From: an uncultured Lentisphaeraceae bacterium
GTDB taxonomy: Bacteria > Verrucomicrobiota > Kiritimatiellia > RFP12 > DVOR01
NCBI GenBank assembly: GCA_949282555.1
Contig: CASDPK010000010.1
Coordinates: 62,001-126,000, forward strand
Length of the DNA stretch: 64,000 nt
Direction: 5' to 3'
Shown here: positions 36,968 to 45,439 of the stretch, in pieces
Layout: each line of letters opens with the position of its first letter
Numbering within the stretch: position 1 is the stretch's first letter
Made by a program: the position numbers and the translations under genes
Notes under the pieces: generated by a model
What the model was told of the DNA's origin: nothing
The model's database searches: none
What the model saw: the letters and a program-made list of their open reading frames with translations, nothing else

Positions 36968-37042
36968 TGGCACCCCCAAGGAGAGTCGAACTCCTCTTAC
37001 AGGCATGAAAAGCCCGTGTCCTAACCGATAGACGATGGGGGC
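36968..37042 (-). tRNA. tRNA-Glu (UUC), copy 2
   Basis: The anticodon loop TTTTCAT gives UUC. The acceptor is GCCCCCA with TGGGGGT (one terminal G-U pair), the discriminator is G and CCA is encoded at 36968-36970. Confidence 0.93.
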
Positions 37043-37054
37043 TCGCGGAGATCA

Positions 37055-37130
37055 TGGTGGCAAGGGTCGGGATCGAACCGACGACACGCGAATTTTCAGT
37101 CCGCTGCTCTACCAACTGAGCTACCTCGCC
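37055..37130 (-). tRNA. tRNA-Phe (GAA), copy 2
   Basis: The anticodon loop CTGAAAA gives GAA. The acceptor GGCGAGG pairs with CCTTGCC with a G-U pair, the discriminator is A, and CCA is encoded at 37055-37057. Confidence 0.93.
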
Positions 37131-37157: not shown

Positions 37158-37232
37158 TGGCACCCCCAAGGAGAGTCGAACTCCTCTTACAGGCATGAAA
37201 AGCCCGTGTCCTAACCGATAGACGATGGGGGC
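37158..37232 (-). tRNA. tRNA-Glu (UUC), copy 1
   Basis: Identical in sequence to the second copy at 36968-37042, with encoded CCA. Confidence 0.93.
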
Positions 37233-37244
37233 GTCTGTGTATCA

Positions 37245-37320
37245 TGGTGGCAAGGGTCGGGATCGAACCGACGACACGCGAATTTTCAGTCCGCTGCTCT
37301 ACCAACTGAGCTACCTCGCC
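37245..37320 (-). tRNA. tRNA-Phe (GAA), copy 1
   Basis: Identical in sequence to the second copy at 37055-37130, with encoded CCA. It is the first gene of the Phe-Glu-Phe-Glu transcript. Confidence 0.93.
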
Positions 37321-41788: not shown

Positions 41789-43063
41789 ATGTGGAAAGAG
41801 ATGATTGCTTGGTTGTTATCGGTGCGCGCCACATTGATGGCGTCCGTTGAGAATCCTTGGTTGTTGGGCCTCTTGCAGTTGCTACTGGTGGCGATCGGAA
41901 CCCTCGCTTCCTACGCGGTCATCTGCCTCCTTTACCGCATCGTGAAGGGGCGGTTGCTGAAAACCCCGCAACGGGAAAGCGTGAAAACGATTCTCTTGGG
42001 CACACGCCTTATCCCGCGGATCTTGCAGGTGGTGCCGCTCATCGTCGCCGGCATTCTCACGTGGACGCTCTTTCAGGCAAGCCCGTTGAGGACGGCACTC
42101 TTGGCGCTCAATCGGGCCTACTTCGTCTTCATCTGCGCCAACGTCTTTTCCTCGGTCATGAACCTTACCTACCGCCTGACCAACTGGCGGCGCGGCGTTT
42201 CGGCATCCCCGCAGAAAGGCATCTTCCAAGTCCTCTCCCTCATGGGCTACGCCTTCGCGGCGGTGGCCATCGTCGCCACGCTTTCGGGCCGCGACCCCAC
42301 CTACATCCTCTCGGGCATGACCGCGCTTTCGGCCGTGCTGATGTTGATCTTCAAAGACTCCATTCTCGGGCTGACCGCCGGCGTGACGCTTTCCGGGAAC
42401 GGGCTGGTGCGTATCGGCGACTGGATCGAAGTGCCCGGGGCCAACGCCGATGGCACCGTGATCGACATCGCCCTCACCACCGTGCGCGTGCAGAATTGGG
42501 ACAACACCATCATCACCATCCCGGCCTATGACCTCGTCGCCAAGCCCTTCAAGAATTGGCGCGGCATGAGTGACAGCGGCGGACGCCGCATCAAGCGCTC
42601 CATCCTCATCGACCTCGACTCCGTGCGGTTCGCCAGCGAGGAAATGCTGGAACGGTGGAAAGAAATCGACCTCATCCGCGATTACATCGCAGGGAAAATC
42701 CGCGAAGTCCGCGCCTACAACACCGCACATCCCTCCTCCAAAATCGCCGTGGCCAACGCCCGCAAACTCACCAACATCGGCACCTTCCGTGCCTACTGCT
42801 TGGCCTACCTCCGCGCCAATCCCTGCATCCATCAGGGCATGACCATCATCGTACGCCAGCTTCAGCCCAACGAACGCGGCCTCCCGCTGGAAATCTACTG
42901 CTTCACCAACGACACCGCATGGGCCAACTACGAAGCCATCCAAAGCGATCTCTTCGACCATCTGCTGGCCATCATGCCCGAGTTCGGCCTGTCGGGCTTC
43001 CAACTGGCCTCCGCCTCCGCCATGCGCCAAAGCCTCGCCGCCCTCCCCTCGTCCGAGACATAA
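41789..43063 (+). CDS. MscS-family mechanosensitive ion channel
   Basis: 424-residue inner-membrane channel that opens on membrane tension to release solutes. Four to five hydrophobic segments precede the MscS pore and beta domain, where GLTAGVTLSGNGLVRIGDWI and TVIDIALTTVRVQNWDNTII are the family core. The C-terminal cytoplasmic part (QLQPNERGLPLEIYCFTND) resembles the YbdG/MscM-like branch, which has an insertion relative to MscS. The ATG at 41789 is chosen; a GTG at 41780 lies inside the initiating region. There is no ribosome site, which fits a nearly leaderless transcript. Confidence 0.9.
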   Translation: MWKEMIAWLLSVRATLMASVENPWLLGLLQLLLVAIGTLASYAVICLLYRIVKGRLLKTPQRESVKTILLGTRLIPRILQVVPLIVAGILTWTLFQASPLRTALLALNRAYFVFICANVFSSVMNLTYRLTNWRRGVSASPQKGIFQVLSLMGYAFAAVAIVATLSGRDPTYILSGMTALSAVLMLIFKDSILGLTAGVTLSGNGLVRIGDWIEVPGANADGTVIDIALTTVRVQNWDNTIITIPAYDLVAKPFKNWRGMSDSGGRRIKRSILIDLDSVRFASEEMLERWKEIDLIRDYIAGKIREVRAYNTAHPSSKIAVANARKLTNIGTFRAYCLAYLRANPCIHQGMTIIVRQLQPNERGLPLEIYCFTNDTAWANYEAIQSDLFDHLLAIMPEFGLSGFQLASASAMRQSLAALPSSET

Positions 43064-43142: not shown

Positions 43143-43266
43143 TTGTTTCTTCCCTCTGGAAAACAGAAAAAACCGGCGCGAAGGCCCCATAACCGCCACG
43201 GCCCCAAACGCACTCCTCCGGGCGCTCGCGCCTAGATGCGACGCCAACGCACGTATCGCCCAGATT

Positions 43267-43275
43267 TGCTACACT
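43267..43275 (+). promoter_or_regulatory. Extended -10 promoter of the candidate structured RNA
   Basis: TGCTACACT, preceded by TT. No good -35 box is seen. It would start a transcript near 43282. Confidence 0.5.
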
Positions 43276-43281
43276 CTTGGA

Positions 43282-43407
43282 CACGCTATGGGAGAGCCAT
43301 AGCATCCCACTTTGCTTCACGCAAAACAAAGTTGTTCACGGGAAATTAGGACCTTCCAAGGAATGAACGACGGTTTTGGGTCGAAGCACGCGTCAGCGTG
43401 CTTTTTC
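43282..43407 (+). ncRNA. Candidate structured small RNA or riboswitch-like leader
   Basis: About 125 bases run from an extended -10 to an intrinsic terminator with no convincing ORF. They contain three further helices: GCTATGG/CCATAGC (43285-43291 with 43297-43303), ACTTTG/CAAAGT (43309-43314 with 43327-43332; an alternative TTTGC/GCAAA lies inside) and TTGTTCA/TGAACGA (43332-43338 with 43364-43370). The last encloses GGGAAATTAGGACCTTCC, which can pair further. It does not match RNase P, SRP, 6S or a riboswitch that I recognise. It lies just upstream of the GtrA gene, so it could be an independent small RNA or a terminating leader that controls that gene. Confidence 0.5.
43384..43406 (+). terminator. 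Intrinsic terminator ending the candidate RNA
   Basis: AAGCACGC-GTCA-GCGTGCTT followed by TTT. The stem is perfect. It lies before, not after, a protein gene, which is why a small RNA or attenuator is suspected. Confidence 0.85.
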
Positions 43408-43473
43408 CTTGTCGTATTCATTCCGGGCCGTCCTAAGCCTCCCGTGAGTATGAAAGGAAGGCACGCTTTATTT

Positions 43474-43902
43474 ATGGCATGGCCAAATGGATGGGCGCCG
43501 AGGGCGCTGATGGTGGAGTTCCTGCGCTACGTTGTCGTGGGAGGGGTGGCGTTTGTCGCGGATTTCGGCACGTTGGTGGCGTGCCAGGAGTTACTTTTCT
43601 CGTCATTGGATTGGGGTATTTATGCCGCCACAGCCACCGGGTTTGGCGTTGGGCTTGCGGTGAATTATGCACTCTCGCTCCTGTTTGTCTTCACGCAACC
43701 GAAGGATCGTGGGAAGGGGCGCAGTGTGGGAGCCTTCGTCGTCTTTGGGATAGTGGGGCTGTTGGGATTGCTGTGGACGGAGCTCGGAATGTGGCTGGGC
43801 ATTGAGATCCTCGAGTGGAATTACATGCTTGTGAAAGTATTCGTGACGGGTGCGGTGCTCGTGTGGAACTATCTAGGGCGAAAAATCCTTATCTTCCGTT
43901 GA
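43474..43902 (+). CDS. GtrA family membrane protein
   Basis: 142-residue inner-membrane protein with four membrane segments ([19 protein letters not shown], then [37 protein letters not shown], and [20 protein letters not shown]). GtrA proteins are thought to flip or move polyprenyl-linked sugars for surface glycan modification. The ending [12 protein letters not shown] is typical. The start at 43474 has GGAAGG about 12 bases upstream; an in-frame ATG at 43450 lacks a ribosome site. It opens a three-gene block with a FAD oxidoreductase and a polytopic protein. Confidence 0.85.
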
Positions 43903-43912
43903 AAGGAACCAA

Positions 43913-45439
43913 ATGAAAACAGCGATTGTGATTGGGGCAGGCCCCGCCGGATTGACGGCCGCCTATGAACTCCTCACCAAAGGGAATGATTGGCGCGTCA
44001 TTGTGCTGGAGGCCAGCGGTGAGATTGGTGGCATCGCCCGTACGGTCGTGCATGAGGGTTGTCGCATTGATATCGGTGGACACCGCTTTTTCTCCAAGAA
44101 CACGGAAGTGAACGCCCTGTGGGCCAAGCTTATGCCCACGCAAGGCGCCCCGGCATGGGACGATCTCAAGTTAAACCGCGCCAAGCCCTATGCCGACGGC
44201 GGGCCCAACCCTGAGCGCGAAGACCGTGTGATGCTCCTGCGCGACCGCGTGAGCCGTATCTTCTATCTGCGCCATTTTTTCGATTATCCCATTGCTCTCA
44301 AACCCTCCACCTTCCTGAACATGGGCCTGTGGCGGACGTGGAAGGCTGGGTGGAGTTACCTCCATGCGGCCCTCTTCAAACGCGAAGAGAGGAGCCTTGA
44401 AGACTTCTACATCAACCGTTTCGGGCGCGTGCTCTATTCAATGTTCTTTGAGGATTACACCGAAAAACTCTGGGGAATCCATCCCTCCAAGATTTCCCCC
44501 GAGTGGGGCGCCCAGCGCGTGAAAGGGCTCTCCCTCCTCAAAGCCGTGCTCAACGTGCTCAAACCCAAAGGGGCCAAGCGCGAAACCTCACTGATCGAAT
44601 CCTTCCTCTACCCCAAAAAGGGCCCTGGGCAACTGTGGGAACACTTGGCTGACGAGATCCGTGCGCTTGGCGGCGAGGTACGCCTCCACGCCAAGGCCCT
44701 CCGCCTCGAACGTGTGGGCGAGGCCATCGCCGCCGTCCACCTTGAAAACGGCGAACGCCTCCCCTGCGACGCACTCTTCTCCTCCATGCCCATCAAGGAC
44801 CTCGTGGAAGCCCTTCCGGGCACACCCGCCAACGTCCGCGATGTCGCCTCCGCCCTTCCCTACCGCGACTTCGTCACCGTTGGCCTTCTCGTCGATCGCC
44901 TCGCCCTCCGCAACCAAACCAAGATCCCCACACTCAACGGCCTCATCCCCGACACGTGGATTTACATTCAAGAGCGCGACGTCCGCCTCGGCCGCCTGCA
45001 AATCTTCAACAACTGGTCCCCCTACATGATCGACGATCCCGAACATCACGTTTGGATCGGGCTCGAATACTTCTGCACGGAAGGCGACGCCCTATGGTCC
45101 ATGCCCGAAGCGGAGTTCATTGCCTTTGCCGCCAATGAGCTGCGCAAGACCGGACTCCTCGCCCAAGACACCCCCATTCTCAACAGCGTCCGCCTCCGCG
45201 TACAGAAAGCCTATCCCGCCTACTTCGGTGCCTACGCCCGCTTCGGCGAAATCCGCGCATGGCTCGACACCATCCCGAACCTTTGGTGCATCGGCCGCAA
45301 CGGCCAGCACCGCTACAATAATATGGACCACTCCATGCTCTGCGGCATGGAGGCCGTCCGCTCCCTGCTCAACGGCACCCCAAAAGCCGCCGTCTGGTCC
45401 GTCAACACCGAGGAGGAATATCATGAGAGTACTCGTTAA
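43913..45439 (+). CDS. FAD-dependent oxidoreductase (amine oxidase / UDP-galactopyranose mutase-like)
   Basis: 508-residue flavoprotein. The N-terminal dinucleotide motif [16 protein letters not shown] is followed by the FAD ribose motif [14 protein letters not shown] and a second motif [10 protein letters not shown]. The C-terminal FAD segment [20 protein letters not shown] is typical of amine-oxidase-fold enzymes that often sit in surface polysaccharide clusters next to GtrA and glycosyltransferases. Whether it acts as a sugar mutase, a desaturase or another oxidase cannot be decided. AAAGGAA precedes the start, and the end overlaps the next gene by 17 bases. Confidence 0.88.

Follow-up and report, generated by a model that had tools for sequence, protein, structure and literature searches.

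The locus lies on the forward strand of the window, the whole 64,000-nucleotide stretch of DNA that was analysed, and all its features are on the + strand. It is bounded 5' by a mechanosensitive-channel gene ending at 43063 and 3' by a GtrA-family gene of 142 aa (43474-43902; PF04138, E 1.5e-18), the ATG of which fits the start of the domain and which is predicted to be controlled by the leader RNA described here. The GtrA gene is followed by a flavin-containing amine oxidoreductase-like gene (43913-45439; PF01593, E 5e-25), probably in the same operon, and then by a DUF6020 gene. Elsewhere in the window, on the minus strand, a pair of tRNA genes is present twice in tandem, at a 190-nt period and with equal model scores (36971-37130 and 37161-37320).

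An extended -10 promoter box, TTTGC TACACT, is present in the non-coding sequence upstream of GtrA, with its hexamer TACACT at 43270-43275. A TAnnnT box ending 3-4 nt 5' of the RNA start was found in 36 of 37 homologous copies from the genus, and TAnnTTTG was found upstream of 19 of 26 copies in the Bacteroidota, where 1.6 were expected and the downstream control gave 1/26. We infer that transcription starts at about 43280-43283, at hairpin H1. The original prediction had placed a structured RNA at 43267-43407; its non-coding nature, its extended -10 and its folding above chance (z -3.0, with 1 of 200 shuffles as good) were borne out, but its 3' end was wrong, as the RNA runs to 43473. The hairpin at 43383-43404 that had been read as a perfect intrinsic terminator is the apical hairpin P5, which in homologues often has no U-run behind it, and the real U-run, UUUAUUU, is at 43467-43473 and adjoins the start codon. 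The leader (43280-43473) therefore fills the sequence from the -10 box to the GtrA start codon at 43474 and is longer than first reported. Its pairing partners are conserved in homologues down to 43466, then come the U-run and the GtrA ATG. For the full leader (43278-43473) the folding energy is -78.7 kcal/mol (z -5.8), and none of 200 shuffles was equally good.

A BLASTN search of 59 relatives with 43240-43420 as the query gave one clear and several weak matches, several of them with more than one per genome, and in the aligned matches the conserved blocks ran beyond the supposed terminator to the U-run and start codon. A covariance model built from five genus copies (R1) matched the window leader at 43280-43450 (E 8e-20) and, at E<=1, had matches in 16 of 17 genus genomes, with up to 40 per genome; R1 matches were also present in 106 of 162 genomes of the order. 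Copy number in the genus at this threshold differs sharply, with 0, 1 and 4 copies in genomes G014, G002 and G013 as opposed to up to 40 elsewhere, which offers a natural comparison in looking for a partner gene. A search of GTDB genomes with the core pattern found it in Kiritimatiellota and Bacteroidota; among the latter, Arachidicoccus ginsenosidivorans Gsoil 809 is a cultured carrier. The core model R2, built from both phyla, matched the window leader at 43332-43451 and recovered 58 carriers among 337 genomes from the phylum of the window and 14 among 296 sampled Bacteroidota (about 5%). There are four copies in the window genome and one to six in each of seven Bacteroidota carriers, and in one genome two copies lie 1.1 kb apart (L092; G005:C4:117145 and 118282). 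The family is thus sporadic over two phyla.

The leader begins with hairpin H1 (GCUAUGG-GAGAG-CCAUAGC, 43285-43303), the sequence of which is kept within the genus, and a small hairpin H2 (UUUGC...GCAAA, 43311-43325), counterparts of which were seen by eye in the Bacteroidota. The remainder forms one long hairpin, P1-P5, which is conserved, as are its two internal loops. The 5' strand of P1 (43335-43343) pairs with 43440-43448, that of P2 (43346-43352) with 43430-43436, and that of P3 (43360-43366) with 43418-43424; P5 closes the apex at about 43384-43391 and 43396-43403. Between P1 and P2, junction J1/2 (AA, 43344-43345), invariant in 96 of 96 copies, faces junction J2/1 (GCC, 43437-43439), the two C of which are kept in 94 and 95 of 96 copies; this pair of unpaired junctions and a second, ACUUUC/GGG, are nearly invariant. 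The purine-rich internal segment that had been noted within a helix is the 5' side of P2 together with conserved junctions, and its partners are further downstream, beyond 43407. An additional pairing, AP, joins GUUGUUCA (43331-43338) to UGAACGAC (43364-43371), and may be either a pseudoknot with P1 or an alternative early hairpin. When the window copy was folded as growing prefixes AP appeared first, followed by AP with P5, and then by P1-P5.

Support for these helices comes from covariation, which is overwhelming, and from swap tests, in which partner strands were exchanged within a phylum and the statistics ignore phylogeny. When 26 copies from the two phyla were aligned by MAFFT, blind to structure, 94.9% of cells in P1, P2 and P5 were paired, against 74.2% when shuffled and 33-42% when slid by one to three columns, and double-change cells numbered 126 against 36 shuffled. 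With 100 copies there were 584 double-change cells against 153 shuffled, in an alignment fitted to the model. P2 is 99-100% paired, with compensatory changes. AP, P1, P2 and P3 each pair best with their own partner strand; values for P3 gave p 1.1e-15, and those for AP were -17.0 for own and -12.1 for swapped partners in Verrucomicrobiota and -13.2 and -7.5 in Bacteroidota (p 1.5e-15).

The switch strand b+X (43396-43421), which is the 3' side of P5 and the bases following it, can pair either upstream, with strand a (43384-43391, the 5' side of P5 and predicted antiterminator arm) and P4, or downstream, with strand Y+c (43446-43466), the predicted terminator 3' arm, which holds the Shine-Dalgarno-like AAGGAAGG (43454-43461). 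Of 96 non-redundant copies, 85 have a U-run behind the core, at a distance that is nearly always 10-23 nt, and the other 11 have no clear U-run. As the U-run and downstream arm are outside model R2, their conservation is independent support. The c arm before the U-run paired better with its own P5 3' strand (-20.4 kcal/mol in Verrucomicrobiota, -16.3 in Bacteroidota) than with strands swapped within phylum (-14.9 and -10.8; p 2e-14, phylogeny ignored), and a control with shuffled strands showed no clear effect (p 0.08). In 78 of 85 copies, where 0.22 were expected, no part of the leader paired better with the c arm than the P5 3' strand.

For the 85 non-redundant copies with a clear U-run, the mean helix energies of b+X were -31.1 kcal/mol upstream (P4-P5) and -31.4 downstream (-23.8 and -24.9 in the Bacteroidota), and the two are correlated (r 0.64); in the window copy b+X with Y+c gives -30.2 kcal/mol. 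The switch strand's partners coevolve in both phyla. These calculations show two predicted helices around the U-run and gene start that are mutually exclusive, coevolving and nearly isoenergetic, which is, computationally, the terminator/antiterminator arrangement of a transcription-attenuation riboswitch. That the terminator helix forms as a simple pseudoknot while P1-P3 stays intact is a reading we set aside as sterically unlikely. In full-leader energies the P1-P5 fold is favoured in 93% of copies, by about 10 kcal/mol, so the OFF state would need kinetic help or a factor; the window copy is near balance (-78.7 against -76.4, a gap of 2.3 kcal/mol).

The leader lies in the 5' UTR before genes, as is the case for attenuation riboswitches: among the 68 Verrucomicrobiota copies for which a downstream ORF was called, 50 have a start codon no more than 14 nt after the first U, and in most Kiritimatiellota copies the Shine-Dalgarno is inside the downstream arm. 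Only 10 of 43 copies keep the gene frame open across the leader, so the leader is not coding, and a coding explanation was rejected as the long TTG ORF over it is not conserved. Most of the downstream genes encode restriction-modification, glycan or PEP-CTERM/secreted proteins. In raw counts over 75 downstream proteins, recurrent types were Mrr/ISP helicase-nucleases, EcoRI-type and type I methylases and Dcm-type enzymes, along with glycosyltransferases, acyltransferases and GtrA, and 10 of the 75 have a PEP-CTERM motif. Another copy in the window genome (L106) precedes a DNA cytosine methyltransferase (PF00145, E 2e-87), and behind four Bacteroidales copies the next protein reads, by its sequence, like a type III methylase. 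Restriction helicases of one Mrr/ISP-type family stand behind differing leaders in several genus genomes (L087, L110, L111, L120 and L238). Six copies before PEP-CTERM genes (L085, L094, L097, L098, L112 and L115) share a second conserved stretch, about GCGCACACGGGCGCGTGTCTGTGGCGC...CCGAAGGGG, in the first 150 nt after the U-run, between it and the likely true MKK... start; its reading frame varies among copies, and it may therefore be a second leader element.

Rfam 15 covariance models gave no match in the window, either at gathering or at E<=10, other than two chance hits, and at four Bacteroidota loci, with cut-offs as permissive as E<=5-10, there were only unrelated sub-threshold hits and none to the element. 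No description was found in the literature, where supplements of large motif surveys (e.g. PMC8040213) were outside the search and an unnamed earlier listing is possible. The prediction of an undescribed structured RNA was supported by homologues with compensatory changes, found by covariance model in both phyla, and by the comparison with Rfam. The RNA class is real and apparently undescribed, and would work like the transcription-attenuating riboswitches. With these it shares a conserved domain resembling an aptamer, behind which antiterminator and terminator helices exclude each other ahead of a U-run, and a ribosome site in the terminator arm. It differs in belonging to no Rfam class, in reaching 40 copies per genome of about 2 Mb, in its defence and surface targets, and in an RNA that begins at the transcription start with fixed spacing.

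We consider it likely, from the modelled folds, that this is a cis-acting, multi-copy leader RNA working as a terminator/antiterminator switch. Transcription would start at H1, and the AP hairpin and then P5 would form first. A signal bound by the conserved P1/P2/P3 junctions would stabilise the P1-P5 fold, keeping P5 closed and part of Y engaged in P1, which would allow read-through and leave the ribosome site free (ON). If there is no signal Y+c would take b+X, causing termination and hiding the ribosome site (OFF); in Kiritimatiellota it is the terminator helix that would also conceal the Shine-Dalgarno. Of all the steps in this model, the direction of switching is the least certain.

What the signal might be is where the readings diverge. 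A strict small-molecule riboswitch, in which a signalling compound would bind in a pocket made by the P1/P2/P3 junctions and so drive the same strand exchange, is quite possible: the nearly invariant unpaired junctions, the platform layout and the sporadic spread over two phyla would all suit it, but the targets belong to no metabolic pathway. The c-di-GMP riboswitch (GEMM) likewise has many copies and surface-related targets, and for H1 there is what we take to be a faint likeness to it (CACG...GGG..A.ACC); cmscan found no hit to the GEMM consensus in the window, and GGDEF was absent from all 17 genus genomes while control genomes were positive, which makes c-di-GMP sensing unlikely in the genus. 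A c-di-AMP synthase is present, which is uninformative as this enzyme is near universal. Since the targets are restriction-modification, surface glycans and exported proteins, a global cue or a protein fits better than a pathway metabolite. An attenuator in which a dedicated RNA-binding protein stabilises one fold and so governs a surface and defence regulon is a possibility that we hold tentatively; unrelated targets and up to 40 copies suggest one trans factor, and conserved internal loops are typical protein sites, against which a candidate protein was not found and the RNA is sporadic in distant Bacteroidota.

It is unlikely that the leader is an antitermination element like put or EAR, which would act on RNA polymerase and let it run past terminators further down, even though its RNA starts at the promoter and glycan operons are among its targets, as they are for EAR (epsC) and ops. 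The epsC/EAR RNA (RF01735) is a leader before exopolysaccharide genes and a proposed elongation modifier (PMC2864571). It gave no cmscan hit in the window or at the four Bacteroidota loci, occurs in Bacillales and is not known to have a bistable terminator arm; the present leader also precedes restriction-modification and PEP-CTERM genes. JUMPstart/ops, LoaP and UpxY leaders are likewise 5' elements of surface-polysaccharide operons, but they need a NusG paralogue. No such paralogue was found in the genus, where 15 of 17 genomes have one PF02357 gene each and none was detected in two incomplete assemblies, and an RfaH-, UpxY- or LoaP-dependent leader is therefore ruled out there. A conserved terminator arm inside the element, as predicted here, is not known from put or EAR. 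EAR/epsC, JUMPstart and GEMM are thus nearest by role only.

The original prediction had left a choice between a free small RNA and a ligand- or protein-dependent attenuator before the GtrA-led glycan block. The promoter and U-run do bound the RNA closely, as they would if a small RNA were transcribed and terminated here on its own, but the attenuator is favoured because the 3' end is fused to start codons and a strand-exchange arm is conserved ahead of the U-run, and with copies standing before many different genes a free small RNA is improbable. In some Bacteroidota copies the next gene is far off or unclear, so some of these could be free RNAs. A miniature mobile element spread with its promoter would account for many copies at unrelated genes, but is very improbable given that the copies are strongly diverged with compensatory changes and mostly have neither target-site duplications nor recent identical relatives, that the exact core pattern had no match in IMG/VR (a method that would miss diverged copies), and that sampled copies had no BLAST match in plasmids or phages (a method blind to such copies).

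Returning to the terminator/antiterminator switch, it may be, although we put this forward with reserve, that the leader is a new class of riboswitch sensing a global signal, perhaps a stress cue or a nucleotide second messenger that has yet to be recognised. In Kiritimatiellota and some Bacteroidota the leader would then bring restriction-modification, surface glycans and exported PEP-CTERM proteins together in a single regulon. A 1.9-Mb genome carries as many as 40 copies, and hardly any regulatory RNAs are known from these phyla. The family appears to place phage defence and the make-up of the cell surface under a common RNA control. Its two helices are nearly equal in energy in both phyla, which makes it a natural model for studying strand exchange, and which signal the leader reads is a concrete, testable question.
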